Shown here piece after piece: positions 692-22,394 of a stretch of 64,000 nucleotides of DNA. The stretch is taken from NCBI RefSeq assembly GCF_000152945.2, contig NC_020830.1, forward strand, positions 1,560,501 to 1,624,500, in the 5' to 3' direction. How positions within the stretch are numbered: the first letter of the stretch is position 1; each line of letters opens with the position of its first letter. Source of the stretch: Polaribacter sp. MED152 (GTDB taxonomy: Bacteria > Bacteroidota > Bacteroidia > Flavobacteriales > Flavobacteriaceae). The notes beneath the pieces are model-generated. The model saw only the letters and a program-made list of their open reading frames with translations, was not told the origin of the DNA and did no database searches. A program made the translations under genes and the position numbers.

Positions 692-845
692 CGTGCCACA
701 ACAACGTATATAAAAAATAGCGGTTTAGGTGCTTACCTGAACCGCTATTGTATTTAATTAAGTATCTTGCTTTACGAAAAGTTAGTGCTTATAATTCCGC
801 TACTTTTCCTATACCAGACCGTTGAAAGCAATTGCCTACGGCACG
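692..845 (+). repeat. Structured intergenic element I (hairpins and inverted repeats)
   Basis: It begins 4 bases after the SDR stop. Outer arms CGTGCC (692-697) and GGCACG (840-845) are inverted. Inside them CAACG (702-706) pairs with CGTTG (820-824), and GTATA (706-710) with TATAC (810-814). A strong hairpin AATAGCGGTT / AACCGCTATT lies near 717-748. The opening (ACAACGTATATAA then AATAGCGG) resembles the opening of the element at 7262. It is read here as a cassette-boundary-like element of the same family as the later copies. Function unknown. Confidence 0.6.
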
Positions 846-892
846 CAGAAATCGAGTTTTAACAAACTCTTCCTTTTCTGCTAATTCCTTTC

Positions 893-1055
893 AACAGCCC
901 ATGTTAATTGCGCAAGCCGAATACATTGATTATAATAGAGATATCTGCGTCTACGACATACGAAACTTCTATCAACTAAATGTATCGTGAATAAGGCGCA
1001 ATTATCGACTCCGTAAGGCGCGCCTTACTACACGATACACATGGGCTGTTAGGCA
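893..1055 (+). repeat. Structured element ending in GTTAGGC (attC-like geometry)
   Basis: AACAGCCCATGT (893-904) is a perfect 12-base inverted repeat of ACATGGGCTGTT (1039-1050). Inside, TAATTGCGC (905-913) mirrors GCGCAATTA (996-1004), GTATCGTG (982-989) mirrors CACGATAC (1031-1038), and GTAAGGCGCGCCTTAC (1013-1028) is a 16-base palindrome. The right edge reads GTTAGGC (1048-1054), which fits the GTTRRRY core of integron attC sites, and the next gene begins 65 bases later. The left edge has AAC but not a full RYYYAAC. No integrase is in the window, so a recombination role is inference. Confidence 0.55.
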
Positions 1056-1070
1056 AAAGCTAAAAAAACA

Positions 1071-1101
1071 TTGTAACACCAATTAAAAATTTGCATCTAA
1101 A
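1071..1101 (+). promoter_or_regulatory. ECF-type promoter of the sigma gene (autoregulation)
   Basis: TTGTAACACC (1071-1080), 14 bases, then ATCTAAA (1095-1101). The same pair recurs at 2052 and 2622 with 14-15 base spacing. GTAAC-type -35 boxes are known for ECF sigma factors. Because the -10 overlaps the ATG at 1101, translation must begin downstream, at 1119. Confidence 0.75.
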
Positions 1102-1118
1102 TGATAAACGATAGTAAG

Positions 1119-1991
1119 ATGCACAATCCACTCGAAAATATTCACTCAAAAAGTGCGGACTTTGATTTAGTAAAAAAGTCTTTGAACGGAAATCGAATAG
1201 CACTGGACAAACTGATAAAAAAACACCAACCTTTTATCTATAACGTTGCTTGGAAAATGTCTCACAATCCAAATGATGCAAAGGACTTAACGCAAGAAGT
1301 ACTAATAAAAGTAATAACCAACCTTTCGAAATTTTCCTTTAAAAGTACATTTACAACTTGGTTGTATAGAATAGTAGTAAATGAATTCTTACAAGCTAAA
1401 AGGAAAAATAAAAATCAACAATTTACTTCTTTTGAGCAATACGGAAAACAACTCGATGAAATACCCAATCTTGAATTAAATAAAGAAGAAGAAATTGAAT
1501 ATGCAGAACTGTCAAAAGAAATGCAGATTAGCTGTATGTCTGGAATGTTAATGTGTCTCAATAAAGAACAACGGCTTATTTATATATTGGGCGACACATT
1601 TTGTATTGACCACAACTTGGGAGCAGAAGTTTTTGACATTTCACCACAAAATTTTAGAGTAAAGTTACACAGAGCAAGAAAAGAACTTTATAATTTTATG
1701 AATAACAAATGTGGTTTAGTAAAGACCTCAAATCCTTGTCGTTGTCCAAAGAAAACAAAAGCACTTAAAAAAGGTGGTTATTTAAAAGAGGATGAAATGC
1801 TTTTCAATATTAATACCACTAAAAAAATAAAAAATTACGTTACCGAAAATCATTCGGATTTAAAAGGAACAATTGATGATAAATACACACACCTATTTAG
1901 AAACCATCCTGCTAAAGAAGATTTTGGAAAAGAAACAATTATAGACGAACTATTAAATGATAATGAACTAATGAAACACTTACGAAATTAG
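1119..1991 (+). CDS. ECF-type RNA polymerase sigma factor with Cys-rich C-terminal extension
   Basis: Alternative sigma factor directing RNA polymerase to TTGTAACACC/ATCTAAA promoters (inferred from its own promoter and two neighbouring ones). Region 2 is at about residues 30-100 (DAKDLTQEVLIKV and TWLYRIVVNEFL) and region 4 at about 150-190 (SPQNFRVKLHRARKEL). A long tail follows with C-G-L ... NPCRC and Lys-rich sequence, which could bind metal or sense redox state. There is no anti-sigma gene next to it, so the tail may carry the sensing. The ATG at 1119 is chosen, giving 290 residues, since the upstream ATG at 1101 lies inside the -10. A terminator at 2013 ends the transcript, so the neighbours form a regulon rather than an operon. 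Confidence 0.88.
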   Translation: MHNPLENIHSKSADFDLVKKSLNGNRIALDKLIKKHQPFIYNVAWKMSHNPNDAKDLTQEVLIKVITNLSKFSFKSTFTTWLYRIVVNEFLQAKRKNKNQQFTSFEQYGKQLDEIPNLELNKEEEIEYAELSKEMQISCMSGMLMCLNKEQRLIYILGDTFCIDHNLGAEVFDISPQNFRVKLHRARKELYNFMNNKCGLVKTSNPCRCPKKTKALKKGGYLKEDEMLFNINTTKKIKNYVTENHSDLKGTIDDKYTHLFRNHPAKEDFGKETIIDELLNDNELMKHLRN

Positions 1992-2012
1992 TTTTATTAA
2001 ATCTATCTTATT

Positions 2013-2047
2013 AAAAGCCTTTTGAGTTTGTCTCAAAAGGCTTTTTT
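2013..2047 (+). terminator. Rho-independent terminator of the sigma gene
   Basis: 14-base stem AAAAGCCTTTTGAG / CTCAAAAGGCTTTT with loop TTTGT and a T run. It ends 5 bases before the next ECF promoter. Confidence 0.9.
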
Positions 2048-2051
2048 CGTT

Positions 2052-2082
2052 TTGTAACACCATTTGATTTTCTGTATCTAAA
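2052..2082 (+). promoter_or_regulatory. ECF-type promoter, second copy
   Basis: TTGTAACACC (2052-2061), 14 bases, ATCTAAA (2076-2082). It is identical in both boxes to the sigma gene promoter and sits between a terminator and the SRPBCC gene. The ATG at 2085 is only 3 bases after the -10 and so is unlikely to be the start. Confidence 0.75.
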
Positions 2083-2108
2083 CTATGAACTCTAAAAAAT
2101 TTAGAATA

Positions 2109-2618
2109 ATGGAAGTTAAAAAGGAAATTATAGTAAACAAATCAATAACAGAAGTCTGGGAAGTATTGGGCAATCAATACGGAGAAGCCTACAAATGGGC
2201 AAGAGGACTTTATCATTCAGAAGCTCACGGTCTACCAAAAATTAGTGGTGCAATATGCAGTAATCGCACCTGTGACACATCATTTGGGAAATTGCAGGAA
2301 GAAGTAAGAGTATTTAAGGCAAACGAACAATTATCGTATGAGGTCGTCAAAGGTTTTCCAAGTTTTATAGAAACTGGAGTCAACAATTGGTATCTGAACG
2401 AAATAGGTGCAAATAGAACAAAGGTTACAATGCATTTTGTGGGAAAAACAGAGGGTTTTATGGGAGTAATAATGGGTCCTATGATGAAAATGAATCTTAA
2501 AAAAGGATTAGGTCAGGCACTTTCAGATTTCAAGTTTTATGTAGAAAATGATAAACCTTCACCTGAAAAACTCAAAGACAATAAAAAGAATAGTAAAAAA
2601 TTGAAAGCAGTAGCTTAA
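2109..2618 (+). CDS. SRPBCC (START/polyketide-cyclase-like) cytoplasmic protein
   Basis: 169-residue SRPBCC-fold protein, a helix-grip fold that makes a hydrophobic pocket for a ligand. It starts MEVKKEIIVNKSITEVWEVL, the usual first strand and helix of the fold, and continues with PKISGAICSNRTC and a terminal amphipathic helix followed by a Lys-rich tail. No signal peptide. The start at 2109 is preferred over 2085 because of the promoter position. It belongs to the regulon of the sigma factor upstream and is separated by only 3 bases from the next ECF promoter. The secreted protein at 3052 has the same fold. Ligand unknown. Confidence 0.8.
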   Translation: MEVKKEIIVNKSITEVWEVLGNQYGEAYKWARGLYHSEAHGLPKISGAICSNRTCDTSFGKLQEEVRVFKANEQLSYEVVKGFPSFIETGVNNWYLNEIGANRTKVTMHFVGKTEGFMGVIMGPMMKMNLKKGLGQALSDFKFYVENDKPSPEKLKDNKKNSKKLKAVA

Positions 2619-2621
2619 GTT

Positions 2622-2653
2622 TTGTAACACCTTACTTAATTACTGTATCTAAA
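2622..2653 (+). promoter_or_regulatory. ECF-type promoter, third copy
   Basis: TTGTAACACC (2622-2631), 15 bases, ATCTAAA (2647-2653). It begins 3 bases after the preceding stop codon and is 25 bases from the ATG at 2678. Confidence 0.72.
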
Positions 2654-2677
2654 TTACAGAATTTAAAAATAATAATT

Positions 2678-3034
2678 ATGACTACAGAACAAATTACCGA
2701 AAGGCTTACCTCTTTATTGAAAGAAGGGAAATTCGAAGATATTTATGACACTTTGTTTGACCAAGAAAATGTCAAACATATTGAACCTCAATCACCATAT
2801 TTTCCAGATATAACTGGAGTGAAAGCCATTAAGGAAAAAGATAGTGTAATGGCGGGTAATATTTCTGAAGTACACACAATGGAAATAGGCAAAGCTATCA
2901 CAAGTAAAGACTTCATAGCCTTGCCCTACAGAATGTCCTTCACTATGAAAGATCGTAAGAAAGCAGAGCTTGACGAGCTTATAGTTTACCAAGTAAAAAA
3001 TGGAAAAATTATACTTGAACAATTCTTTTATTAA
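2678..3034 (+). CDS. SnoaL/NTF2-like small protein
   Basis: 118 residues. An N-terminal helix pair (EQITERLTSLLKEGKFEDIYDTLF) is followed by strands such as HTMEIGKAITSKDFIALPYRM and ending in LDELIVYQVKNGKIILEQFFY. This is the cone-shaped NTF2/SnoaL pattern, a fold used both for small-molecule catalysis and for ligand binding. Cytoplasmic, with no signal. It has its own ECF promoter and lies 17 bases upstream of the secreted SRPBCC gene, so the two are likely co-transcribed. Exact reaction unknown. Confidence 0.72.
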   Translation: MTTEQITERLTSLLKEGKFEDIYDTLFDQENVKHIEPQSPYFPDITGVKAIKEKDSVMAGNISEVHTMEIGKAITSKDFIALPYRMSFTMKDRKKAELDELIVYQVKNGKIILEQFFY

Positions 3035-3051
3035 TCTATAAATATTTAAAA

Positions 3052-3555
3052 ATGAAAAATTTAATCAAAACAATTACAGTAACCGCACTTTTAATCATTG
3101 GTAGTTTAAACGCAACCGCCCAAAATAACAAGGCAGATTTAAGCTACGTATCCACCGTTGAACTTTCCGCAGATAGCGTTTGGGAACAAATTAGAATAAT
3201 GGATAATATTGATAAATTATCATCTTTCGTGGGAGAAGTAGAATGGACAGGCCCAAAAGGCGTTGGTGGTAGTCGTTTATGTATTGCACCAGATGGACAA
3301 GGAAAATTCAGAGAAAATATTGTAGAGTTTGATGATGAGCAAAGAACATACACTTGGCAAATAGTTGAAGGTGTTCCTGCTAAAGTGAAAAATAGCTTTA
3401 AAGTGGTAGATTTAGGTTTAAATAAGTCTATGATTGTATGGACGTCGGATTATGATTTTATAGAAAACCCAAATATGACAGAAGAACAGTTTAAAGAATT
3501 TATGAAAAGTGCAATTACAGAATTGGTTGAGAATATAGTTAAAATGGCGAGCTAA
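3052..3555 (+). CDS. Secreted SRPBCC-family protein
   Basis: 167 residues. A Sec signal peptide (MKNLIKTITVTALLIIGSLN, cleavage after ATAQ, about residue 24) leads into an SRPBCC domain: VELSADSVWEQIRIMDNIDKL, then VEWTGPKGVGGSRLCI, then a long C-terminal helix. It is probably periplasmic. It forms a second transcription unit with the SnoaL-like gene 17 bases upstream and is the last gene before a terminator. Together with the cytoplasmic paralogue it suggests the sigma factor controls handling of a hydrophobic compound on both sides of the inner membrane (inference). Confidence 0.8.
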   Translation: MKNLIKTITVTALLIIGSLNATAQNNKADLSYVSTVELSADSVWEQIRIMDNIDKLSSFVGEVEWTGPKGVGGSRLCIAPDGQGKFRENIVEFDDEQRTYTWQIVEGVPAKVKNSFKVVDLGLNKSMIVWTSDYDFIENPNMTEEQFKEFMKSAITELVENIVKMAS

Positions 3556-3586
3556 AAGCCTGTGCCTAAAATAGTATAAAAACAAT

Positions 3587-3645
3587 AGGGCGATTTTCGT
3601 TTAACACAAGGTTCATTGCGTGTTTGCGAGGTCGCCCTTTTTTAT
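3587..3645 (+). terminator. Terminator-like inverted repeat after the regulon
   Basis: AGGGCGA (3587-3593) pairs with TCGCCCT (3632-3638), followed by a run of six T. The long interior may fold further. Confidence 0.6.
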
Positions 3646-3880
3646 CTTAAAATATTTTTATCAAAAGCAAAATAGACACCTTACTATTGGGAATGAAACG
3701 ATTAAAATTAATAATATACTCGGAAAAACCATTCGTTTGAATGAAGTTCAAATAATTGAAAAATATGCAGGAGATTATATTCTGAAAGTTAAAAAGAAGA
3801 ATCTAAAAATTGACACTACTATTATAGAAGCGAAGTCTCTCTCTGCTTTATCTTCTGAATTAAAAAAACTAAATGTATAA
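3620..3880 (+). pseudogene. Gene remnant: C-terminal part of a small protein, no proper start
   Basis: The open frame of 86 codons begins at a GTG inside the preceding terminator. Its first dozen residues are encoded by the terminator stem and T run, and there is no ATG in frame further on. From about residue 14 the sequence looks like the tail of a pleckstrin-like or membrane-adjacent beta domain (LTIGNETIKINNILGKTIRL, then LKIDTTIIEAKSLSALSSEL). It is best explained as a gene that lost its 5' part when the neighbouring DNA was joined. A functional short gene with a GTG start cannot be excluded. Confidence 0.5.
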
Positions 3881-3893
3881 TGGGAGTAAAACT

Positions 3894-4022
3894 TTTTACA
3901 ACAACATATAATATTAATTGCTTGTTTTCGCCTTCTTACTAAAATCCTCACGGACTTTCTATCTTTGATTTATTTGCTAAATTTAGTACATAAACAAAGT
4001 AACTAAGATTATACAAACCCAT
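3894..4022 (+). repeat. Cassette-boundary-like element A
   Basis: The opening ACAACAACATATAA is followed by a hairpin AAAATCC / GGACTTT (3941-3958) and the core GATTTATTTGCTAAATTTAG (3967-3986). The tail then reads AACAAAGTAACTAAG and ACAAACCC. It lies 14 bases after the remnant's stop codon and is collinear with copies at 5699, 8498, 9600, 10650, 12390, 21228 and 22233. Confidence 0.75.
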
Positions 4023-4050
4023 TTTCTATAATATGATACACTCCTACTCC

Positions 4051-4968
4051 TTACAGAATTGTAAATGACTCACTTGAACAATCAAGAAATAAAATTTCAC
4101 TTCTAAATGAATTGTTTCCAATCATTCCTTCCATTCCTGACACAGAGAACAATAGTTTTATGAACCACGGAAAACCCTCTATATAAGTTACATTATGCAA
4201 TGCTATTTTTTTACCAGCAATGGTCATCTTACTTTCTGTATCTGCAGTAAAAATCTTAAGTTTTCTGCCCATTTGATTCCCTTCACTTTCTTGAATAATG
4301 GCATTATTTTTTTTTAATTTTTTAAAATCACTTTTTGAAGTAATTAAATCAAAGGCGCTAGCTCCAGAATCCCACATAACTGTTCTTTTGTTACCATTTA
4401 TTTCAACATCAATATAAATTCTTCGATTTTCAAAATTGAAAGAATTCATTTCTTTATTTGATAAATAATTTGGAGTTTCAATAAACAGATTCAAAATTGA
4501 ATTTTTATAATCAACACGTAATTTTGTCCTCTCTAATAAATCAGTTCCTAGTGTACCAATTATAATATTATTTTTTTGCTCAATGTCATTTATATTTTGA
4601 CCATAATTTGCAACTTTTATAGTTTCAAAATTTGCTTCTAGCTTTCCTATAAACAGTTCAAACTTAGATGTTGGTTGGTTAATATTTAAACTTTTTAGCG
4701 TTTTACCATACAAGAAGGAATATGGAGCACCCATATCCAATTGCATCCAATACCGCTCTTTAGATTGGTTTGATAGTTTTACTGGTATTAACAAAGCATT
4801 TCTATCACTAAAGTCATTTTTTTCCCAACCTATATTTATTTCACCTGAGTCATTTTTAACAGTTACGGTATTTAAAGGTGGTTTAAATAGGTTTTGTAAA
4901 TAAAAATAACTTCCAAAAAGAAGCAAACCTAAACTAATAAGAACCGAATAAATAATTGTTTTTCGCAT
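4051..4968 (-). CDS. Membrane-anchored aspartyl-protease-like protein
   Basis: 305 residues with one N-terminal transmembrane helix (MRKTIIYSVLISLGLLLFGS), the rest probably periplasmic. Two retropepsin-like halves can be seen: one with LDMGAPYSFLYG, where the Asp is kept but the usual DTG or DSG is DMG, and one with MWDSGASAFDLI, a canonical DSGA. GTLGTDLLE and GNNSFRSEILFLD are the strand signatures that follow in this fold. ATG at 4968 is used. The longer frame from a TTG at 4986 would begin inside a -7-like box (TCAATTTG, 4984-4991). The gene is downstream of an XRE regulator with membrane segments and on the same strand. Proteolytic activity is plausible but unproven because of the altered first motif. 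Confidence 0.72.
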   Translation of the reverse strand: MRKTIIYSVLISLGLLLFGSYFYLQNLFKPPLNTVTVKNDSGEINIGWEKNDFSDRNALLIPVKLSNQSKERYWMQLDMGAPYSFLYGKTLKSLNINQPTSKFELFIGKLEANFETIKVANYGQNINDIEQKNNIIIGTLGTDLLERTKLRVDYKNSILNLFIETPNYLSNKEMNSFNFENRRIYIDVEINGNKRTVMWDSGASAFDLITSKSDFKKLKKNNAIIQESEGNQMGRKLKIFTADTESKMTIAGKKIALHNVTYIEGFPWFIKLLFSVSGMEGMIGNNSFRSEILFLDCSSESFTIL

Positions 4969-5068
4969 AATATAATTTTTATGCAAATTGAACCCTTAAT
5001 GGTAAAAGACACAAGGTATTTTCTAGGACACTTTCAGGACATTTTGTGGTATTTCACAAAAAATGTGT

Positions 5069-5665: not shown

Positions 5666-5698
5666 AACATCAAAAATAATTATTATAAATAAAAAATA

Positions 5699-5831
5699 TT
5701 GGCAACGCCGTGTAAAAAAAATTGCTGTAAAAGCTCACTTGCAAAAATCCTCTCGGATTTTCTTTGTCAGTAAATATTTATTAAATTTATGTCTTAAATC
5801 ATCTAACTAGCATTGTAACAATACGTTATCA
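5699..5831 (+). repeat. Cassette-boundary-like element B
   Basis: The opening is TTGGCAACGCCGTGTAA, then a perfect stem AAAATCC / GGATTTT (5744-5761) with loop TCTC. The diverged core ends TATTTATTAAATTTAT (5775-5790), and the tail reads AATCATCTAACTAG then ACGTTATCA. It is in the same orientation as element A although the two intervening genes are on the other strand. Confidence 0.65.
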
Positions 5832-5849
5832 AACATAAAAACAAACAAA

Positions 5850-6821: not shown

Positions 6822-6834
6822 ATTAAAATCAATC

Positions 6835-7251
6835 ATGAAACAATTTCAATTACCACTAAGATTCGCCCTATGCGCGGCATTGTTTACTTTTATGTTCAAC
6901 GAATTACAAGCCCAAAAGATTGTAAGGTTTAGCCAGTACAAAATCTATAAAAACGATTACGGTTCAACAAAAATTAAAATCCAGCCTCATACTAGAAGCA
7001 CAAATGTAGGTGAAGACGAATCTAAATATCAGCGTAGTTTTAACGTCTATGGAGTATTAATATGCTATACCCTAGATGGTAAAAGAAAAGCTTTACGTCA
7101 AGACATGACTTACAAACTTAAAAACAACGACTATTATGAAGTTACGCTTGCATATAGCGCTAAGTCCGACGTTAGCTCCGTAAATGTCACTTACTTTAAT
7201 ATGGTAGACGACCCAAAAACCAGTTGGCCTAAAAAGGACGATTGTTTTTAA
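6835..7251 (+). CDS. Small secreted protein of unknown function
   Basis: 138 residues with a signal peptide of about 27 residues ending ELQAQ. The mature part is short, beta-rich and polar, with Lys/Tyr-rich stretches and a single C-terminal Cys next to the end (KKDDCF). No family recognised. It follows the preceding secreted gene by 13 bases. An inverted-repeat element begins 11 bases after the stop. Confidence 0.55.
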   Translation: MKQFQLPLRFALCAALFTFMFNELQAQKIVRFSQYKIYKNDYGSTKIKIQPHTRSTNVGEDESKYQRSFNVYGVLICYTLDGKRKALRQDMTYKLKNNDYYEVTLAYSAKSDVSSVNVTYFNMVDDPKTSWPKKDDCF

Positions 7252-7261
7252 ATAATACGTT

Positions 7262-7370
7262 TGCTACCAATGTATAAGAATAATAGCGGTTTTAATTGCT
7301 AAAACAAAAGAAAATAAAATCTGTGTTTATGCGCAAATTAATATGCAAATTCAGCTACTATTCTTATAAG
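7262..7370 (+). repeat. Cassette-boundary-like element J (inverted repeat)
   Basis: TATAAGAATAATAGC (7273-7287) mirrors GCTACTATTCTTATA (7354-7368) with one mismatch. The opening CTACCAATGTATAA plus AATAGCGGTTT matches that of element I at 701. It lacks the GATTTATTTGCTAA core, so it may be a second subfamily. Confidence 0.55.
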
Positions 7371-7429
7371 AGACCGAAAGGCTTCCAACTATTTTTTTGA
7401 TTATATTGTAACCTTTATTTTTTAATTAC

Positions 7430-8494
7430 ATGAATAAGTTTTGCGTTTTACTTTTTTTATGTTTTGGCATTCAATGCATGACTTTTGGCCAAAATGATAT
7501 CTTAAAATTAAAAAACAATGATATCATTGTAGGAGACTTAAAAAATATGGACAGAGGTATTGTAACAATAGAACCTCCCTACTCAGATGTTGACTTTAAA
7601 ATTAAATGGGAAGAAATTCTAGAAGTCACCACGTTTCAGCGCTATTTAATTACACTAACCAATGGAAGTAGAATTAACGGTAGTTTCAAAAGTGAGGCAC
7701 CTGGAAAGATATTTATAGACAATGAAGAAGGTGAAGACCTAACCGTTAATCAAGATGACATTGTAAACATTAATAGTGTAGATAGAGGGTTTTTAAGCCG
7801 TTTATCAGCAAATATAGATTTTGGTTTTTCACTTACCAAAGCCAATAATCAGAGGCAATTGAATAGTAATTTGAGAATAGACTATTTAGCAGACAGGTGG
7901 TCCACAAACCTATATTACAATACCTTAGTTACAAATCAGGATGATGTTGATCGAATACGAAGAATTGATGGAGGCCTTGGCTATAGGTATTTCCTTCCTA
8001 AAGATTGGAATCTAGGAGTAGATTTAACCTTTCTTTCCAACACAGAGCAGTCTTTAGATTTAAGGACCTCAGCGAAACTAGGTTTAGGTAAATTTGTAAA
8101 AAGAAGTAATGCTTTGTACTGGCTTATTGCAGTTGGTGCAGCATACACTAGTGAAACTCATTCATCAGTTCTAAATTCGAATAACGATTTATCTTCACAG
8201 ATCCCAGATCGAAATTCTATGGAAGGCTATTTAGGAACATCGTTAAACCTATATGATATTGGCGATATAAATTTGATCGCTAATCTCAATTTATATCCAA
8301 CTATTATTGCTGATGATTCTGTTGAATCTGGTCGTTTTAGAACCGACTTTAGGTTCGATGCAAAATACGATGATTTCGTTTTAAAAGATTTTTATATAAG
8401 GGCTGGCTTTACCTTAAACTACGACAACAGACCTGTTGAAGCTGGTAAAGAAGTAGATTACATTTTTACCACTGGTTTTGGGTGGAGTTGGTAA
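7430..8494 (+). CDS. DUF481 outer-membrane beta-barrel protein
   Basis: 354 residues. The signal peptide (about 20 residues, ending MTFGQ) is followed by two small SH3-like or LSm-like repeats at about 25-115 (LKLKNNDIIVGDLKNMDRGI, then ITLTNGSRINGSFKSEAPGK). From about 125 to the end is a DUF481-type barrel (FGFSLTKANNQRQLNSNLRI, then GGLGYRYFLPKDWNL) finishing in an aromatic residue, GFGWSW, the usual barrel end. DUF481 proteins resemble E. coli YdiY. Function unknown. It stands alone between elements J and C. Confidence 0.82.
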   Translation: MNKFCVLLFLCFGIQCMTFGQNDILKLKNNDIIVGDLKNMDRGIVTIEPPYSDVDFKIKWEEILEVTTFQRYLITLTNGSRINGSFKSEAPGKIFIDNEEGEDLTVNQDDIVNINSVDRGFLSRLSANIDFGFSLTKANNQRQLNSNLRIDYLADRWSTNLYYNTLVTNQDDVDRIRRIDGGLGYRYFLPKDWNLGVDLTFLSNTEQSLDLRTSAKLGLGKFVKRSNALYWLIAVGAAYTSETHSSVLNSNNDLSSQIPDRNSMEGYLGTSLNLYDIGDINLIANLNLYPTIIADDSVESGRFRTDFRFDAKYDDFVLKDFYIRAGFTLNYDNRPVEAGKEVDYIFTTGFGWSW

Positions 8495-8497
8495 GAA

Positions 8498-8582
8498 AAC
8501 AAAAGTAGTGTAAGACTTTCTAACTGTGATTTATTTGCTAACTTTAGTTCTTAAATCACGTAACTAATCTCACACAAACCCT
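8498..8582 (+). repeat. Cassette-boundary-like element C (short)
   Basis: It begins 4 bases after the DUF481 stop. The core GATTTATTTGCTAACTTTAG is at 8528-8547, followed by TTCTTAAATCACGTAACTAA and CACAAACCC. The left arm is shortened compared with elements A and D. Confidence 0.72.
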
Positions 8583-8609
8583 TTGACTGCAATTAAATTA
8601 AAACTAAAA

Positions 8610-9596
8610 ATGAAAGAAATATTCAAACTATCTTATCTAATCGCAATTGTTCTTTTTTTGACGATCAGCTGCAAAGATGAAAGAAAAAAGACAGAAAAAG
8701 TTTTAACCCAAGAGGCTACTGAAGAATTTAATGTAATAGGTAATTACGTTTCTGAAGATTATTCAAAAAGAAGCGAAGGGTATGATTGGGTGTCTGTTGC
8801 GATTACTGAAGCAAATAATAATCAATTGAATATTTCAATACGCTCTCGAGCAGACAAGAAAAAACCCACTTGTACATTCGATGCAGTTGCTAAAAAAGTA
8901 GATGACAAAGTTTACCAAACTCAAATTAATGGGAAATCCATTCTGTTTGAATTTACTAATGCACAAATCAGTATATCTGCAGAAAAAGAAGAACACGAAA
9001 GCTTACTTTATTTTTATTGCTCTGGTGGAGCAAGTATTGCTGGAACTTACCAGAAAATAAATGAACAAATGGATCAAAATCAAATTGACAAAACAAAATT
9101 CAATAGCGTACTTAATTTACAAGACGTTGGCTTTAGTGTTTCTTCAATAGAAAAAGATGGCAAAAACACCCTCACAATTTCCACATTTGGCTTACAAGAA
9201 AGTGAATACAACCAAACATTTATTATTGACGGTAAAGAAGTTACCAACGCAGAAGTTGAAGACCTTAATTCTGATGGCTCACCAGAACTTTTTGTTTTTA
9301 CCCGATCTGTTGGAAGTGGAAGTTACGGAAAGGTATACGCATTTTCCGTTAACAATAAGAAATCAATGAGTGAGATCTATTTTCAGCCAACATCAGAAAA
9401 CAGCGTGATAAATAAAGGTTATATGGGCCATGATGAATTTTCTCTCGTTGAAAATACTTTAGGTCAACGATTTCCAATCTATAAAGAAGGTGATACAAAC
9501 GCTGCACCAACTGGAGGAACAAGACAAGTTTCTTACAAACTAGTTGATGGAGAAGCCATGAGAAAACTTAAAGTTGATAAAATCACCGAATATTAA
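8610..9596 (+). CDS. Lipoprotein with PliI-type lysozyme-inhibitor domain
   Basis: 328 residues. Lipobox LTISC is followed by K-D-E, the kind of charge after Cys that in Bacteroidota marks export to the cell surface. Residues about 40-160 form an unassigned domain with two Cys (KPTCTF, FYCSGG). Residues about 180-328 match PliI inhibitors of invertebrate-type lysozyme: VEDLNSDGSPELFVFTRS, the conserved SGSYG loop that plugs the lysozyme active site, GYMGHDEF, FPIYKEGDTNAAPTGGTRQ and YKLVDGEA. It is likely to protect the envelope from animal or grazer lysozyme. ATG at 8610 is used, as an upstream TTG at 8583 only adds residues before the signal peptide. Confidence 0.85.
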   Translation: MKEIFKLSYLIAIVLFLTISCKDERKKTEKVLTQEATEEFNVIGNYVSEDYSKRSEGYDWVSVAITEANNNQLNISIRSRADKKKPTCTFDAVAKKVDDKVYQTQINGKSILFEFTNAQISISAEKEEHESLLYFYCSGGASIAGTYQKINEQMDQNQIDKTKFNSVLNLQDVGFSVSSIEKDGKNTLTISTFGLQESEYNQTFIIDGKEVTNAEVEDLNSDGSPELFVFTRSVGSGSYGKVYAFSVNNKKSMSEIYFQPTSENSVINKGYMGHDEFSLVENTLGQRFPIYKEGDTNAAPTGGTRQVSYKLVDGEAMRKLKVDKITEY

Positions 9597-9599
9597 AAA

Positions 9600-9729
9600 C
9601 TACCGCCAACAATGGCTAAAAGTAATTACTAGTTCTAGCCTTCTTACAAAAGTCTTGGCAGAATTTCTATCTATGATTTATTTGCTAAATTTAATTCCTA
9701 AATAAGGCAACTTTCTTTATCACAATTAC
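9600..9729 (+). repeat. Cassette-boundary-like element D
   Basis: The opening is CCGCCAACAATGGCTAAAAG, followed by CTTCTTACAAAAGTC and the core GATTTATTTGCTAAATTTAA (9675-9694), then CCTAAATAAGGCAACTTTC. It begins 3 bases after the PliI stop. Confidence 0.72.
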
Positions 9730-9747
9730 ACAGCTAAAACGTTAAAA

Positions 9748-10644
9748 ATGACACGTAACTTCATAGTAATTTTCGCATGTATTGCTCTTTTGGTTTCATG
9801 CAAAGAAAAACCAAGTTTTTCTGAGTTCACGTATCCTAATGGAAAAACAAAGGCATTAATATTGAGTTATGATGATGGAACTATTCAAGATATAGAACTC
9901 GCTAATTTGTTTGATAAATACAATCTTGTTGGAACATTCAATTTAAATTCAAAATACTTAGGAGTAACGAGAGGATGGCCACAAGAAAATGGCGATACTA
10001 TTTATCAACGCTATGTTCCAAAAGATTCTTTACTCATTATTTATAAAAACCATGAAATTGCAGCACACGGAGCATTACATAAAAATTTTACCGCAATTTC
10101 AAAAGAAGAAGTTCTTGAAGAAATTAATACAGATTTAGCTATTTTAGAAAAGCTTACCAATAGAAAAATTATCAGTATGGCCTATCCATTTGGTAGCACA
10201 AATGATAGCATTGCCAATTTAATAGCTTCTACTGGAATTAAAAACGGAAGAACTGTAAATGATACGTACACATTTAATTTTCCAAAAAACTACATGACAT
10301 GGCATCCAACTTGTCATGATAGTAAGGCGCTCGATTATCTCGATTCTTATTTGGCATTAAATCAGCAACAATTATCTGTATTTTATGTGTGGGGGCACTC
10401 ATGGGAATTCGGAGATAGGAAAAGATGGGACAACATGGTTACTTTTTGCGAGAAAATTGCAAAATCTAAGGATATCTGGTCTGTAGGCCATGGAGAACTT
10501 ACCAATTATTTACTAGCAATACAAGATGTTGAAATAGCCAATAATCAAATTCTAAATCCTATAGGTAATCAACCTGTATGGATAAAACTTTCGAACGGCA
10601 TTCAAAAGCTCAATGCAGGAGAATCTATTAAAATTAAACAATAA
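9748..10644 (+). CDS. Polysaccharide deacetylase (CE4-like) lipoprotein
   Basis: 298 residues, lipobox LLVSC followed by K-E. NodB-type motifs: SYDDG (catalytic base and metal Asp, about residue 41), HGALH (metal-binding His pair, about 110) and AYPFGS (about 146). A late VWGHSWEFG provides the His of the last motif. It should remove acetyl groups from an extracellular or peptidoglycan-like glycan, or may act as a related hydrolase on another substrate. The C-terminal 40 residues form a small beta extension. It stands alone between elements D and E. Next to a lysozyme inhibitor, a role in lysozyme resistance is tempting but unproven. Confidence 0.82.
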   Translation: MTRNFIVIFACIALLVSCKEKPSFSEFTYPNGKTKALILSYDDGTIQDIELANLFDKYNLVGTFNLNSKYLGVTRGWPQENGDTIYQRYVPKDSLLIIYKNHEIAAHGALHKNFTAISKEEVLEEINTDLAILEKLTNRKIISMAYPFGSTNDSIANLIASTGIKNGRTVNDTYTFNFPKNYMTWHPTCHDSKALDYLDSYLALNQQQLSVFYVWGHSWEFGDRKRWDNMVTFCEKIAKSKDIWSVGHGELTNYLLAIQDVEIANNQILNPIGNQPVWIKLSNGIQKLNAGESIKIKQ

Positions 10645-10649
10645 CTCAC

Positions 10650-10775
10650 AAGTTAGATAACAAACTACTTATTTCAAGCTACTTATAAAAGTCTTTTCCG
10701 GCTTTTCATTCGATTTTTATTTATTAAATTAGGTGATTGAAACTCGTAACCAAGCGTAAATAGAAAGGTTAGCCC
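10650..10775 (+). repeat. Cassette-boundary-like element E
   Basis: A diverged copy: AAAAGTC ... GGCTTTT stem (10687-10706), core GATTTTTATTTATTAAATTAG split as 10712-10732, then GAAACTCGTAACCAAGCG. It lies just after the deacetylase stop. Confidence 0.55.
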
Positions 10776-10811
10776 TAAACTAAAAATCAAATTAAAATAT
10801 CGTAATTTCTT

Positions 10812-11651: not shown

Positions 11652-11749
11652 CTTTCCCATTCATCACAAAAGCGACACAGCCATACCAATTCTTTCTAGC
11701 ACACCGCTTATAAGCCTATTTTTGAAGCGTAAAATTTAAAAACAAACTC

Positions 11750-12295: not shown

Positions 12296-12389
12296 TAACA
12301 TCGTGCAGCATGAATTTACAATCTGAACCAATTGCATTTATTAAGAAAACCATAGAGTAGAAATCACTAGTACTATCAAATATACCTAA

Positions 12390-12500
12390 TGGATAGTTCT
12401 CTACTATTTCCCAAAATACGCACTGGTTTTCTTAATCTGTAAATATTTAGTAAATTGTTTACTTAAACTAGGCAATTAAACGTGCAGAAATATGCTACAG
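12390..12500 (+). repeat. Cassette-boundary-like element F (diverged)
   Basis: TAAATATTTAGTAAATTG (about 12440-12457) stands in place of the core, followed by TTACTTAAACTAGGCAATTAA. It lies in the 221-base gap after the DinB-like gene. Similarity is weaker than for elements A, C, D, G and H. Confidence 0.45.
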
Positions 12501-12516
12501 GTAATTTAAGATTGAT

Positions 12517-12945
12517 ATGAAAATTGACCTTCTAAAAAAAGCTGACATAAATCCATCGATACAAAATCAAATATCAGATTTGTTTAAACAACTAGGTGGA
12601 AACAAAAAACAAGTTCCCTTGAATGAATTGCTTGATGCGAATAACCCTATCACAATTTCCTATTGTAGTACAGACAACAAAATAATAGGCATTGCTCTAA
12701 TGTGTACCTACAAAGTAATATCAGGAAAAAAAGGGTGGATTGAGGACGTTGTTGTAGATTCAACACATAGAGGCAAAGGCATTGGAAGAAAAATGATGAA
12801 TAAATTACTTGAAGTCGGAAAAGAAAAAGGGCTATCAGAAATACTTCTTTTCACAGAAGACCATCGAAAACCTGCCATAAAACTTTATTCCGACTTGGGT
12901 TTCAGCTTCAAAAACAGTAAGATTTACACTAAAAAATCATCATAA
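12517..12945 (+). CDS. GNAT-family N-acetyltransferase
   Basis: 142 residues. Acetyl-CoA-binding motif A is clear at about 75-100: WIEDVVVDSTHRGKGIGRKM, where RGKGIG is the pyrophosphate loop. The C-terminal motif B (KPAIKLYSDLGF) follows at about 120. It transfers an acetyl group from acetyl-CoA to an amine of an unknown small molecule or protein. It is a single gene between elements, typical cassette cargo. Confidence 0.88.
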   Translation: MKIDLLKKADINPSIQNQISDLFKQLGGNKKQVPLNELLDANNPITISYCSTDNKIIGIALMCTYKVISGKKGWIEDVVVDSTHRGKGIGRKMMNKLLEVGKEKGLSEILLFTEDHRKPAIKLYSDLGFSFKNSKIYTKKSS

Positions 12946-13263
12946 AACTGAGCAACAACATAAAGTTTATGACTCACTTTTGTACTTAAACATACCCATT
13001 CATCCAAAGTATTGGTTATCAATCTTATCTCTAATTCAATATTGATTTCATAATTATCTTAAAATTTTTTTAATCTGTGTAATTTTTTTTACTACTTTAG
13101 AAATCTGAATTTATAACTAAATATATATCAGAAGATTAAAATCAACTAAAACCGAATTTAGACTAGGAATTATACGCTGGTTCATATCTCTAAAAGAAAG
13201 TTCAAAAATTTATGAACTATCAACAACAGCAATTCTTATTCTAATAATCTTTATGATTAGATA
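12946..13263 (+). other. AT-rich gap with a partial element opening
   Basis: GCAACAACATAAAG near 12953 matches the opening of the repeat family, but no core follows. The rest is AT-rich, with poly-T tracts near 13065-13095 and no open frame. It probably carries the promoter for the envelope gene run that starts at 13264, which I cannot place. Confidence 0.4.
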
Positions 13264-14496: not shown

Positions 14497-14525
14497 CTCA
14501 ATTTGTATAAATAAAAGATGAAAAA

Positions 14526-16988: not shown

Positions 16989-17009
16989 AATAATTAAAAC
17001 ATACAACCA

Positions 17010-17723: not shown

Positions 17724-17740
17724 TTAGATAAATTTTTAAA

Positions 17741-18754: not shown

Positions 18755-18779
18755 GCATCTATATAAATTCAACATAAAT

Positions 18780-19202
18780 ATGAAAAAAACAACCATTTTA
18801 ATTGCAACCTTCATTCTTTTAGTTTCTAGTTATTCTTTTGGACAAGATGAAGATAATGGATGGGTATTACTCTCTACAAAAAAGGTTTCATATAAAGCAG
18901 AAACTGATAAAGTAAATATGCTTACAAAGGTTAAAAATTTATCGAAAATTAAACTAAAATGTACGCAAGGAACTTTTAAACTAAAACAAATCCGAGTGGA
19001 AATGTCAGATGGTACCAAAAAAGAATTTAAACCCAAAGGATTAGGAGTACTTACTAAAGGTACATCTTCATTTACTTATGATCTTCCAGGTGACGATCTA
19101 AAGTTAAAAGCATTGGAAATAGATTATGGTTCTTATGGAAGCATGCTAATTACCAAGCGAGGGATAGTGGAAATTTGGGGTAAGAAACGCAATGAAAAAT
19201 AA
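18780..19202 (+). CDS. Secreted DUF2541-like protein
   Basis: 140 residues. The signal peptide ends SYSFGQ (about residue 22). The mature 118 residues form one beta domain: WVLLSTKKVSYKAETDKVNM, then KIKLKCTQGTFKLKQIRVEM, then KGTSSFTYDLPGDDLKLKAL. This matches the layout of DUF2541 proteins such as E. coli YaaI in the periplasm. Function unknown. It is 25 bases after the META lipoprotein and 25 before the DUF4136 lipoprotein. Confidence 0.6.
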   Translation: MKKTTILIATFILLVSSYSFGQDEDNGWVLLSTKKVSYKAETDKVNMLTKVKNLSKIKLKCTQGTFKLKQIRVEMSDGTKKEFKPKGLGVLTKGTSSFTYDLPGDDLKLKALEIDYGSYGSMLITKRGIVEIWGKKRNEK

Positions 19203-19227
19203 AACTCATTTAATTAATTAAAAAATT

Positions 19228-19758
19228 ATGGCTAAAACAAAACTTGTTATTTTAAGTTTAATTATCATTTTAGTGTCTTCTTGCGGTTCCGTAAAAACAG
19301 CTTCAGACTTCGATAGCAGTGTTGATTTTACAAAATTTAAAACATTTGGTTTTGCAAAAGAATCCAACAATTTAAAAATTAATGATATAGTAAAAGGTCG
19401 GATAACTAAAGCTATATCTCAAAATCTAGAAAATAAAGGACTTATTGCATCTTTAAATCCAGATATACTTATTGACTTAAATGTACAAACCAAAGAGAAA
19501 AAGAACTACATAACCAATCAAATTGGTATTAGTGGCTCTATTGGAAGACGTTGGAGAATTGGATCAAATATGAGTACATCCAATACACAGCAAATAAATC
19601 AAACAGAAGGTACACTTACTATTAATTTAGTGGATGCTGCTCAGAAACAATTAATTTGGATGGGTTCTGCTACAAGTATTGTCAATCAAAAAAGTACAAA
19701 CCAAGAGAATTTGACAAAAACGATTAATGAAATACTGATCAATTTTCCGCCTAAATAA
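19228..19758 (+). CDS. DUF4136 lipoprotein
   Basis: 176 residues, lipobox LVSSC. DUF4136 pattern: DFDSSVDFTKFKTFGF after the lipobox, a helix IVKGRITKAISQNLENKGL, then DILIDLNVQTKEKK, a Ser/Gly/Asn-rich loop, and TLTINLVDAAQKQLIWMGSA. These proteins are small envelope lipoproteins of unknown role. It belongs to the same run. Confidence 0.82.
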   Translation: MAKTKLVILSLIIILVSSCGSVKTASDFDSSVDFTKFKTFGFAKESNNLKINDIVKGRITKAISQNLENKGLIASLNPDILIDLNVQTKEKKNYITNQIGISGSIGRRWRIGSNMSTSNTQQINQTEGTLTINLVDAAQKQLIWMGSATSIVNQKSTNQENLTKTINEILINFPPK

Positions 19759-19872
19759 AAATGCATTTCATTGTAGTAGAAAAAAGATTCGAAATTTCGT
19801 TTATAAACCCTATATAGCAAAACACCTAGCAAAACATAATTTTTATAAAGTTCAGTTTAAAAATAATAAACC

Positions 19873-21021
19873 ATGTTTAAAAAAAGTTTTTTCTTATATC
19901 TAATACTTTTTATTATAGTCTTATCTATAAGTTCATGCTCTTTAATTAAAATTGAAAGTGACCAAAAGCCTCTAGGTACAAAAGAACTGAATACAAGGCT
20001 ATTAACACAGAACTTCGCAAAAGAAGCTATGGATCGTGTAGAAATGGCTGCCGACAGTATTTATAGTTTAGCCACCAATGAGAAAAACATACAGCTAAAT
20101 ACATTACAATGGAAAATTCAAACTTCTCAGGAGTTAGGTAAATTTAGCTTTCAAACAGAACCACGAATTGCATTAATGGATACTTGGGCCTATTTTTTAG
20201 AAGTCAAAAATTCATTGGAAAACCCAAAATTGTTAAAGCTATTTGGAACTTATAAAAATGTAGCGCTTGATGCTGTAAATACAAATATAGAAGGTATTCA
20301 AAAAGTTGCTACTAATGTACTTACAAAAGATGAGTATCATAAAATCAAGAGTTTTGTAGAAGATTACGCTAATAATTTTTCACTATTATCCCAGGAAGAA
20401 TTCAAACATAAGTCTATTAGACAATCCTATTTAGAATTCAAAAATATACCTGATAGTCTTGCCATTCAAACTGTGGGTACATTATCTGAAGTAGTAGCTG
20501 ATGCTACTAATCGCTTTGGGTATTATTCAGAGGCTTCTGGAAAACGCATCAACTGGAAAACAAAAATGCTTTTACGAGAAAAAGGATTAGATTCATTAAA
20601 TCTCGAGGCTAAAATGGCAGAAATAGATAGGCAGTTTAATCGATTACTTGAGGTTGCCGAAAACTCTCCTGAAACCATAGAACAAGCTATCAAAGAATTT
20701 AGAGAAAATATGGGCCCTCTTGTCAGCAGTCTTAATTATGAAATAGGATCGGCTATGGAGAGCTTTTCGTCGGATGTTCTGTTAGTTGATGGTATGATTC
20801 GTAGGGAAAGAGTTGCTTTAGATTCTATCATAAAACGAGAGCGCCTGGCCTTAACAGCTAAAGCAGATTCTTTAGTAGAAACTGGTATTGAAAGTGCCTT
20901 TGATAGCATTGGCAAAACCTTAAGAAATTTAATAATATACTTCATATTGCTTTTTGTTGTTGTATTAGGGCTACCTTTTTACTTGGGTTATTTTATAGGT
21001 AAACGAAAATCAAAATCTTAA
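19873..21021 (+). CDS. Helical lipoprotein with C-terminal membrane helix, unknown function
   Basis: 382 residues. The N-terminus is LSISSCSLIKI after a hydrophobic stretch, probably a lipobox. The body is largely helical and acidic/basic (FAKEAMDRVEMAADSIYSLA, then IDRQFNRLLEVAENSPETIE), consistent with long coiled helices. A C-terminal transmembrane helix (NLIIYFILLFVVVLGLPFYL) ends in a basic tail. Having both a lipid anchor and a C-terminal helix is unusual and would tether both ends to membranes. Last gene of the same-strand series, 114 bases after the DUF4136 gene, so it may have its own promoter. Not recognised. Confidence 0.55.
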   Translation: MFKKSFFLYLILFIIVLSISSCSLIKIESDQKPLGTKELNTRLLTQNFAKEAMDRVEMAADSIYSLATNEKNIQLNTLQWKIQTSQELGKFSFQTEPRIALMDTWAYFLEVKNSLENPKLLKLFGTYKNVALDAVNTNIEGIQKVATNVLTKDEYHKIKSFVEDYANNFSLLSQEEFKHKSIRQSYLEFKNIPDSLAIQTVGTLSEVVADATNRFGYYSEASGKRINWKTKMLLREKGLDSLNLEAKMAEIDRQFNRLLEVAENSPETIEQAIKEFRENMGPLVSSLNYEIGSAMESFSSDVLLVDGMIRRERVALDSIIKRERLALTAKADSLVETGIESAFDSIGKTLRNLIIYFILLFVVVLGLPFYLGYFIGKRKSKS

Positions 21022-21227
21022 TGTATTCTGAGCATACGTTCCTATTATTTTATAGCGACATCGCTTTTTGATTCATAGATGAATCACCCATTTCTTAATG
21101 TCTGTTTTTCAAACCCATAATATTTGATTGTTTATTTATGGTTTAAATGAAACCTCAAGGAAGGGTAGATAACAAATTCATCAAGAAAAAAAACAGAATA
21201 AACTACTGGCAATTCAGAATATACTGA
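21022..21227 (+). other. Gap after the envelope gene run
   Basis: It contains a small hairpin AGCGACATCGCT followed by T (21054-21069), a possible weak terminator. Nothing else recognised before element G. Confidence 0.4.
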
Positions 21228-21332
21228 ATGGGTAGTTCTCGGTTACCTACAAAAGTACTGCCCAACCTTCTATCTGCGATTTATTTGCTAACTTTAGTAA
21301 TTAAATGCACAACCAACCTTTCACAAAGAAGT
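21228..21332 (+). repeat. Cassette-boundary-like element G
   Basis: The core GATTTATTTGCTAACTTTAG (21278-21297) is preceded by ACCTACAAAAGTAC and followed by AATTAAATGCACAACCAACC and TTCACAAAG. The open frame of the following hydrolase reads into it, but that part is not coding. Confidence 0.75.
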
Positions 21333-21335
21333 TGT

Positions 21336-22226
21336 ATGACATCTAAAAAAAGAATGACAGGAAACTTTGTAGATAACTTGAGATATTATTTCAAGCATAA
21401 TAATACCAATTTGAAAAGCAATTATTCTTACATTTCAACTGATTTTGGAAAAGTAAGGGTTTTTGATACAAAAGGTAAAAAGCCTGTAATAATTTCGGTA
21501 CCTGATGGACCAAATGTCATTGAACATCATGAAAACTTGATTTCGGAACTTTCAAGAGACTTTAGAATTGTTTGCTTTGAGTTTTTTGGAATTGGAAAAT
21601 CATACCCTAATTCAAAATTTAATTATTCGTTAAATAAGGCATCTAGCTTAATAATAAACATAATGGACATTTTAAGAATTGACAGAGCAATTCTTTGTTT
21701 TTCTTGTTCCAATGGTTTGTATGCTATAAAAACTGCGGAACTATTTCCCAATCGAATTGTACATTTATTCTTGTCACAAACACCATCAATGAACGCAATG
21801 GTAAAATGGACTGATATGAACATTCCAAAAATATTGCGATATCCCGTAATCGGACAAATAGTAAATTCAGTTACAGAAAAAAAACTAACGAAAATATGGT
21901 ACAAACAAGCCTTGCCTAAGGAGACTGATAAAACTAATTATGTAAAAACTGCAATATCATCATTAGAAAATGGCGGTTGTTTTTGTCTCTCTGGGCTAGT
22001 GCAAGGCCTCGAAAAGGAAAAGAAAACAAAAATGAACGTCTTGGAAGTACCTTCAACAATAATTTGGGGAACAAAAGATTATACGCATAGAAAAACAGAT
22101 AATAAATCAATTATCGAACACTTACCGAACTGCGAAATAATCGAATTCGAAAATTGCGGACATTTTCCTGAACTAGAAGATTCAAAAAGATATGTAAAGC
22201 TAATAAATGAAAAGCTAAAACGATAA
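21336..22226 (+). CDS. Alpha/beta-hydrolase fold protein
   Basis: 296 residues. Signatures: oxyanion region after strand 3 (VIISVPDGPNVIEHHENLI), nucleophile elbow C-F-S-C-S-N-G (about residue 125, where the usual G-x-S-x-G starts with Ser), acid IIWGTKDYTH and catalytic His ENCGHFPELE. It is a possible esterase, thioesterase or C-C hydrolase. An upstream start at 21228 would translate the repeat element, so ATG at 21336 is used. ATG at 21354 is also possible. It is a single gene between elements G and H. Confidence 0.8.
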   Translation: MTSKKRMTGNFVDNLRYYFKHNNTNLKSNYSYISTDFGKVRVFDTKGKKPVIISVPDGPNVIEHHENLISELSRDFRIVCFEFFGIGKSYPNSKFNYSLNKASSLIINIMDILRIDRAILCFSCSNGLYAIKTAELFPNRIVHLFLSQTPSMNAMVKWTDMNIPKILRYPVIGQIVNSVTEKKLTKIWYKQALPKETDKTNYVKTAISSLENGGCFCLSGLVQGLEKEKKTKMNVLEVPSTIIWGTKDYTHRKTDNKSIIEHLPNCEIIEFENCGHFPELEDSKRYVKLINEKLKR

Positions 22227-22232
22227 GAAACA

Positions 22233-22360
22233 CCTAGTATAACAACGTGTATAATTCATCCTACTTCCCTCCTACTTAAAACTCCTGACCGACTTTCTAT
22301 CTGTTATTTATTTGCTAACTTAGTACTTGAACATACGACTAACCTTTCAAAAATTCGTTA
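22233..22360 (+). repeat. Cassette-boundary-like element H
   Basis: The opening ACAACGTGTATAATTCATCC (22248-22267) is followed by CTTAAAACTCCTGACCGACT, the core TTATTTATTTGCTAACTTAG (about 22304-22323), then ATACGACTAACCTTTC and CGTTAGCG at the right end. It begins 7 bases after the hydrolase stop. The outer AACAACG and CGTTAG can pair. Confidence 0.75.
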
Positions 22361-22394
22361 GCGATAATTGAAGCAACGTACTAAAAACTAAAAT

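Follow-up and report, generated by a model that had tools for sequence, protein, structure and literature searches.

Repeated elements of Polaribacter sp. MED152 as putative attC-like sites of an integron-like cassette platform with a recombinase lacking the I2 helix

The presence of repeated intergenic elements between single accessory genes raises the question of what such elements do and how the genes between them came to be there. The elements in question lie in the first 22 kb of a 64,000-nucleotide stretch (the whole of which is here called the window) of Polaribacter sp. MED152, a single-contig genome of 2.96 Mb. A sequence-only reading of this stretch had noted at least seven copies of an element, with a weaker one at 12390, all of one orientation and arranged in the geometry of a gene-cassette array. 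In this report, we compare these elements with their relatives in the same genome, the family and the phylum, and argue, with a probability of about 0.82, that they are attC-like recombination sites of an integron-like platform, the recombinase of which would act without the IntI-specific insertion (I2).

The core of the element, GATTTATTTGCTAAATTTAG, occurs in the window four times at three or fewer mismatches against 0.12 expected, a number reached by none of 100 shuffles. A covariance model, R1, was built from 23 sequences, comprising 19 elements of a second array in the same genome (hereafter array B) and four of the window (3894, 5698, 9602 and 22235). At E ≤0.01 R1 finds ten window places between 694 and 22365, six of which are outside the training set, and all of which are on the plus strand; they include the eight positions noted from the sequence and a further site at 694, so that both the elements and their common orientation stand. 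A window element is about 115-137 nt long, rather than the 80-130 bases first proposed, the conserved core being its middle. Array B, at 221-241 kb on the minus strand and 1.3 Mb from the window, is the well-kept form of the same element family, with 21 detected sites of about 124-140 nt on one strand and mostly one small gene between neighbours. As judged from sequence, the repeats are genuine parts of a system of cassette recombination, which is largely decayed in the window.

One indication of such a system is the behaviour of the cassette ends. When a cassette is taken to begin with GTTnnnnnn and to finish with the base preceding the next GTT, its left end is the reverse complement of its own right end: averaged over 184 cassettes, most of them belonging to relatives, 5.61 of the 6 variable positions agree, and complementarity is perfect in 152 (15 of 214 sites in which one or both ends could not be placed, and pairs more than 5 kb apart, being excluded from the count). 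The two halves of one site agree at only 2.28 of 6 positions (198 sites; shuffled 2.20, the highest of 2000 shuffles being 2.55). Pairing of the two ends of one element as an ordinary inverted repeat, as the sequence-only reading had supposed for its opening and right end, is rejected as a general rule by these values, the pairing partners being instead the far ends of the neighbouring cassettes. In an enlarged set the ends match at 8/9 or better in 274 of 314 cassettes, and in an overlapping set of 211 agreement of the ends runs at 87-92% over bases 4-9, drops to 67% at base 10 and to 4% at base 11, returns to 77-87% over bases 12-14 and is 10-24% beyond, compared to 27-37% at bases 5-10 for the two halves of one site. 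The cassette-end complementarity of integrons, which the system shares, spans 9-11 nt (PMC2727003).

Near-identical cassettes at different places begin and stop at the first and last base of the predicted unit, that is at GTT, among the 314 cassettes (200-5000 bp) compared. For example, an array B pair is 99.87% identical over 762 bp with flanks agreeing at 25 and 21 of 60; in Polaribacter sp. BM10 a 617 bp unit occurs three times at 100% with flanks of 19-31 of 60; genome G113 has a 1226 bp copy at 100% (flanks 37 and 18 of 60), and G014 has four copies of 557-560 bp at 96.6-99.8% (flanks 23-50). A full-length nucleotide match was found within the own array for 32 of the 314 and in another fetched array for 20. 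One cassette is common to two genera (G113 and G145; 93.6% over 792 of 795 bp), and another to array B and Tenacibaculum aquimarinum (89.3% over 559 of 562). The window itself contributes the unit 821-1050, which is identical at 230 of 230 nt to array B (genome 227353-227582, minus strand), the identity breaking off between C and GTT at the left end and just behind GTT at the right; no third copy was found in the genome, and this is the only window unit the ends of which were checked with success. The same 230-nt unit accounts for an array B junction scoring 2/6, since the unit to its right begins with GTTGCCACA, which is complementary to the right end that follows. Comparison of the copies shows the cassettes, as far as sequence can, to be discrete units cut at GTT, and the precise breakpoints for which the first reading had proposed to look are found at the predicted ends. 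The cassettes of region G113:C1:204000-243999 (L081, L082) include one family of 422-458 bp, which occurs 17 times among the 314 at 76-100% identity. In G113 neighbours are often copies themselves, so that flanks can agree too.

These data bear on two simpler explanations. Ordinary intergenic repeats, consisting of terminator plus promoter elements, would be in accord with the terminator-like hairpin seen by eye in the middle of many elements, with their A/T-rich core and with the better survival of this core in the window, but they predict neither unit breakpoints nor cassette-specific end pairing, and we consider this explanation scarcely credible. Had gene order and elements been conserved everywhere, as the sequence-only reading pointed out, such repeats would be favoured; full-length recurrence in another fetched array is seen for only the 20 cassettes mentioned. 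The units could also be non-autonomous transposons or miniature inverted-repeat transposable elements (MITEs), in which a transposase would move every unit by means of a terminal inverted repeat belonging to that unit. Complementary ends of 9-10 nt in each unit and copies at several places are what this explanation would require, yet the ends differ between units, and the units near the recombinase described below have one orientation, abut at GTT and start from one fixed site next to a tyrosine recombinase gene, making a transposon origin very improbable.

The tyrosine recombinase at the head of array B has 385 residues. Around 64 related recombinase genes with an N-terminal domain, 195 elements lie within 9 kb downstream on the same strand, one upstream on the same strand and none on the other strand, and among 47 such genes with at least 1 kb of sequence downstream 41 have an element there. 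Neighbourhoods were examined for 74 of 120 recombinase matches, in which apparent internal stops often reflect a match running past the real stop. The co-occurrence with a tyrosine recombinase suggested for investigation in the first reading is thus seen at the array heads. The ten recombinase genes without an N-terminal domain are arranged differently, four with a co-oriented array downstream, three divergent and three with none. Four recombinases of this kind (L151, L152, L153 and L220) have arrays divergent as in classical integrons, and the first three form one clade in the recombinase tree. As to a conserved chromosomal home of the recombinase, tblastn for its TonB and IMPDH neighbours gave nothing in 16 stretches from 15 other genomes, a weak negative, only 10 of the stretches spanning 10 kb on that side.

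If the array is of the integron type, the right end of the first site should predict the left end (9-mer) of the first cassette, and hence the position of attI. Of 43 arrays, 29 have the predicted 9-mer as an exact match no more than 150 nt beyond the point where the recombinase match ends, and four more have it with one mismatch, compared to 6 of 2148 for control ends taken from other arrays; for genes without the N-terminal domain, two of four are exact and one has one mismatch. The other 10 of the 43 predicted ends have no match of at least 8/9 within this distance, and several lay farther downstream, such that the first detected site is not always the first site. In the own genome the attI is 33 nt past the recombinase stop codon and ends in ATATAACTA immediately before GTT. 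By eye, attI is preceded by a conserved ATATAACNA in one group and by ATATAAACAA or a palindrome in others. Placement of a putative attI just after the recombinase gene is shown by these sequence matches. In L128, L134, L130, L140, L141 and L094, which belong to one recombinase group, the attI differs from the ATATAACNA type in that, again by eye, an almost perfect palindrome immediately precedes GTT.

What kind of enzyme then heads these arrays? The integron-integrase model TIGR02249 matches the own recombinase at 219.9 bits, below its cut-off of 265, with the match split at 176/240. In the alignment the I2 insertion, of about 41 columns, is present in 7/7 IntI rows and absent in 28/28 cassette-recombinase rows. 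The own recombinase exceeds the curated cut-off of 220 for NF040815 (recomb_XerA_Arch) with 227.5 bits, while of six relatives without an N-terminal domain, cut to the matched stretch, one is over (223.7) and five are at 202-213. In a tree, the root of which is arbitrary and the inner order unsettled, the cassette recombinases group with IntI away from Xer at 100/100. Most carry an extra N-terminal domain of about 85 residues, which was poorly modelled when predicted alone from one sequence (predicted local distance difference test score, pLDDT, 56.5); the best solved structural relatives of the recombinase are 4a8e and 5hxy, in a whole-model search that barely covers residues 1-86. The integron-integrase model matches the own genome at four places (49, 241, 535 and 1076 kb, E 0.001), and two further Xer-type genes elsewhere in it are taken as XerC and XerD.

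The absence of an obvious attC consensus or integrase had been remarked upon from the sequence. For the window the latter holds, the integron-integrase model having no match there at E ≤0.001, and Rfam at gathering scores likewise finding nothing in the window; attC-like anatomy and a recombinase are nevertheless both present in the same genome outside the window. An ordinary integron, or a cluster of attC sites lacking an integron integrase (CALIN), served by a canonical IntI that is elsewhere in the cell or was recently lost, would explain sites obeying most attC rules; many genomes from other families do carry canonical IntI over the cut-off (105 of 395 phylum genomes), and in G212 one element lies beside such a gene. 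Against this explanation, which we regard as quite unlikely, stand the I2-less recombinases at array heads with fitting attI, the lack in most sites of the base read by I2, and the occurrence of IntI over the cut-off in 0 of 149 family genomes, including the own genome (searched at E 1e-80, so that a match barely over the cut-off could escape).

The sites themselves were compared as predicted folds. Folded with the complementary ends that meet in the free circle, 264 of 273 sites are more stable than in the array form, seven are equal and two are less stable, the means being -26.29 vs -21.44 (a gain of 4.9 kcal/mol) and -21.40 for a random-end control. The bottom strand is predicted to be more stable than the top (-26.3 vs -22.6). 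The R-L spacer bases are unpaired in the consensus structure, and when bottom strands are folded singly with forced pairing, the first loop is most often one-sided, 0/3 (133 of 237). For the extrahelical base, one-base bulges within 32 nt on the R'' side only were counted in bottom-strand folds with the R arm held paired, in sites of 100-170 nt with ends matching 9/9; such a bulge occurs in 18 of 22 sites beside canonical IntI (4/4 arrays) and in 8 of 237 in I2-less arrays (5/39 arrays), and in top-strand folds in 18/22 vs 12/237. Both the folds and the missing bulge are shown by prediction. Two other Bacteroidota genomes (L215 and L209) also have elements of the present type close to canonical IntI genes, and the site type may accordingly be common to both enzyme kinds.

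From these observations a mechanism can be proposed for array B, in which the recombinase gene is followed by attI and then by cassettes read in the direction of that gene. In a free circular cassette the two complementary ends of 9-10 nt would meet, and the single strand of the circle, presumably the bottom strand, would fold to a hairpin with an R arm of 9-10 bp, an L arm, a variable tip and a spacer, of about 3 and 6 nt, that stays unpaired. The recombinase would join this hairpin to double-stranded attI at GTT, with replication then resolving the product, as it does in integrons. Once inserted, the R arm would lie opposite the end of another cassette and lose about 4.9 kcal/mol, a loss that would make retention of a cassette likelier than its excision and constitute a possible ratchet. 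With neither the I2 helix nor a conserved extrahelical base, the recombinase would tell the strands apart by the asymmetry of the spacer, by the length of the R arm and perhaps through the extra N-terminal domain. What we infer here is the folding of the circle as a single strand in vivo, the way a strand is chosen, resolution by replication, the ratchet effect and whatever part the N-terminal domain may play.

Alternatively, the recombinase of the same platform could act on double-stranded sites, like Xer on dif, with crossover at GTT and with the complementary ends serving otherwise. An enzyme that is Xer-like and without I2 fits this alternative, as do attI that are dif-like palindromes, e.g. 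L128, L134 and L141; but the ends vary and yet stay complementary within a cassette, a rule that an enzyme reading double-stranded sequence does not need, and sites beside canonical IntI obey the same rule. Indeed, exact chains of complementary 9-base cassette ends are found beside canonical IntI in L211, L213, L214 and L219, with a short one in L215, among 12 Bacteroidota regions. On this evidence action on double-stranded sites appears doubtful, if far from negligible. We somewhat favour the view that there is a second kind of integron, widespread in the family and present elsewhere in the phylum, which would capture folded single-stranded cassettes without an I2 helix, whether never acquired or lost, and without the R''-side extrahelical base.

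Several observations weigh against the interpretation of the elements as attC-like sites of an I2-less platform. Its whole support is comparative, and the minimum-free-energy folds are those of isolated strands. In the window only two adjacent pairs of sites are scorable, and both are poor (3/6). Some copied cassettes share a flank, as in a 795-bp pair of G113 with a left flank of 59/60, where the neighbour is also a copy. Six of the 47 heads with at least 1 kb downstream show no element; at E 1e-40 a recombinase is missing from 32 of 130 element-bearing family genomes and present in 5 of the 19 genomes without elements, although one of these five, G127, shows weak elements. The comparison with canonical sites comprises 22 sites in 4 arrays (17 distinct) out of 12 canonical regions, and a 1-nt bulge is present on the opposite (R') arm in 42/237 sites of I2-less arrays against 1/22 beside canonical IntI. 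Finally, region L215, outside the canonical set, has two scorable sites of the element type without the bulge, which resemble R1 elements and are on the same strand as its canonical IntI gene, and in G212 one element is in the classical position beside canonical IntI; site type and enzyme type are consequently not perfectly matched.

The distribution of the element was assessed with one genome per species. As had been suggested from the sequence, genomes were scanned with the covariance model, and at least one match is present in 130 of 149 sampled family genomes (own included) and in 52 of 296 genomes across the phylum; since at most 22 candidates were scored per genome, element counts per genome are lower bounds. 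The recombinase is present in 103 of the 149 at E 1e-40 and in 55 of the 296 at E 1e-60. Cross-tabulated by hand, the family comprises 98 genomes with both, 32 with elements only, 5 with the recombinase only and 14 with neither. Given this frequency of the element in the family, a large reservoir of gene capture may be uncounted. The closest recombinases (65-71% identity) have Polaribacter, Tenacibaculum and Winogradskyella as named carriers, and a patescibacterial metagenome-assembled genome (L168, Candidatus Moranbacteria) has one that is 34% identical. One element used as a query matched five plasmid records and, by distant blastn, no phage record. The mobilizable plasmid NZ_CP092416.1 (L221) of Flagellimonas marinaquae has, in region 6947-9813, an element downstream of a gene of the dihydrofolate-reductase family. 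It also carries erm(F), the gene of a Tn3 transposase and that of a recombinase, the last being divergently placed, 41% identical to that of array B and annotated 'site-specific tyrosine recombinase/integron integrase'. This plasmid may be a mobile form of the platform.

With integrons the system shares a recombinase heading the array, an adjoining attI, head-to-tail and mostly single-gene cassettes, and sites bounded by AAC...GTT with an unpaired spacer and a variable tip. It differs in that the recombinase is without the IntI-specific insertion, usually has an extra N-terminal domain and, when carrying this domain, is co-oriented with the cassettes, and in that the sites mostly have no R''-side extrahelical base. 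Residues 87-366 of the recombinase have the domain make-up of XerA (NF040815) and XerC/D, but unlike in Xer/dif the enzyme heads a cassette array. In the accessible part of the description of an integron-like subgroup of tyrosine recombinases (PMC8138268), no insertion-less member is linked to cassette arrays or sites. Polaribacter phage P12002L, as far as the consulted text extends, similarly has cassette-like attC sites, one of them recombined by IntI1; these were predicted by HattCI and Infernal, and no I2-less recombinase is described there (PMC9892861). On sequence features the system is best filed as an I2-less variant of the integron. In the open literature, as partly accessible and with most subscription papers and all preprints outside its scope, we found neither arrays of this kind nor a cassette recombinase without I2 described.

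The recombinase thus lacks a part, I2, that is thought essential for gene capture. The paired absence of I2 and of the base it reads makes directly testable whether I2 is required for single-strand cassette recombination or is one solution. If the proposal is true, the enzyme would be an extant relative of the ancestor without I2 from which integron integrases have been proposed to descend; a phylogenetically inferred sequence of the ancestor is stated not to have been available (PMC7790495). Likewise, surveys requiring I2, and attC models trained on I2-type sites, would miss the platform. Integron surveys recognise the integrase by its IntI-specific domain (PMC9668308, PMC8352920), and IntegronFinder 2.0 is reported to find one complete integron in Bacteroidetes proper, in Salinibacter (PMC9024848).

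In the window the sites are of the right type and orientation, and their ends are mostly broken. The cassette-array geometry first perceived there holds for the element family, by virtue of end pairing, breakpoints and head recombinase, with the change that the window sites are mostly decayed (Table 1). By the definition of a CALIN as at least two attC within 4 kb of each other and no integrase, the spacing of the elements would fit except for the gap of 12.5-21.2 kb, and no recombinase is near, but the sites are degenerate. With CALIN the window array shares sites of one orientation, accessory genes and the lack of a nearby recombinase, and it differs in having sites of the I2-less type, mostly decayed. 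A 9/9 match to the left end for site 694, 1.5 kb left of the window and inside the start of an open frame, is ambiguous and was not used. We read the window array as a decayed, recombinase-free (CALIN-like) outpost, still receiving or giving the unit 821-1050. The gene at the end of this array, for an M24 peptidase, had no match at E 1e-60 in 39/39 other genomes sampled in the genus.

Table 1. Elements, cassette and genes of the window array, with the recombinase gene of array B (window coordinates unless stated otherwise)
Feature	Position	Strand	Remarks
attC-like element	694-829	+	R1 63.6 bits; outside training set; additional to the sequence-only list
Right end CGTT of element 694-829	820-823		opens cassette 821-1050
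Cassette without open reading frame	821-1050	+	227 nt plus next GTT; identical copy in array B
attC-like element	3894-4029	+	R1 103.6 bits; training member; decayed at the right end, GTT absent
attC-like element	5698-5833	+	R1 82.6 bits; training member
Possible element remnant, weak	7260-7384	+	R1 31.6 bits, E 0.0022
Element, left part lost, core kept	8476-8590	+	R1 36.4 bits, E 0.00025
Accessory gene after element 8476-8590, PliI-like C-terminal match	8583-9596	+	Pfam PF16743, 32.5 bits
attC-like element	9602-9738	+	R1 92.3 bits; training member
Accessory gene, polysaccharide deacetylase	9748-10644	+	Pfam PF01522, 55.2 bits
Decayed attC-like element	10641-10776	+	R1 47.3 bits
Weak attC-like element ahead of GNAT gene	12369-12502	+	R1 29.6 bits, E 0.0056
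GNAT gene	12517-12945		Pfam PF00583
attC-like element ahead of alpha/beta hydrolase gene	21205-21339	+	R1 48.9 bits
Alpha/beta hydrolase gene	21228-22226 (listed open reading frame)		likelier ATG near 21337 (by eye); Pfam PF00561
attC-like element	22235-22365	+	R1 83.8 bits; training member; opening ATAACAACGTGTATAA, end CGTTAGCG
Accessory gene, M24 peptidase, last gene of window array	22395-23582	+	Pfam PF00557
Tyrosine recombinase gene, head of array B	G000:C1:241530-242687	minus	385 residues

The right half of the cassette 821-1050 (893-1050) carries a second, different hairpin site, with AGCCCATGT...ACATGGGCT directly beside the R arms, and since it was missed by R1, further site types exist. 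As regards the cargo of array B, 12 of 20 scanned open frames have no Pfam match at E 0.001, the others including a WYL regulator, RDD, OmdA, DUF6090 and TPM proteins and a CusS-like match that is present twice. One array B cassette is a three-gene ABC-3C system (L010:5727-8713; genome 237727-240713), matching MC5, CTD9 and, weakly, SMC_N; with such a unit forming a single cassette, defence systems may travel in cassettes of this kind.

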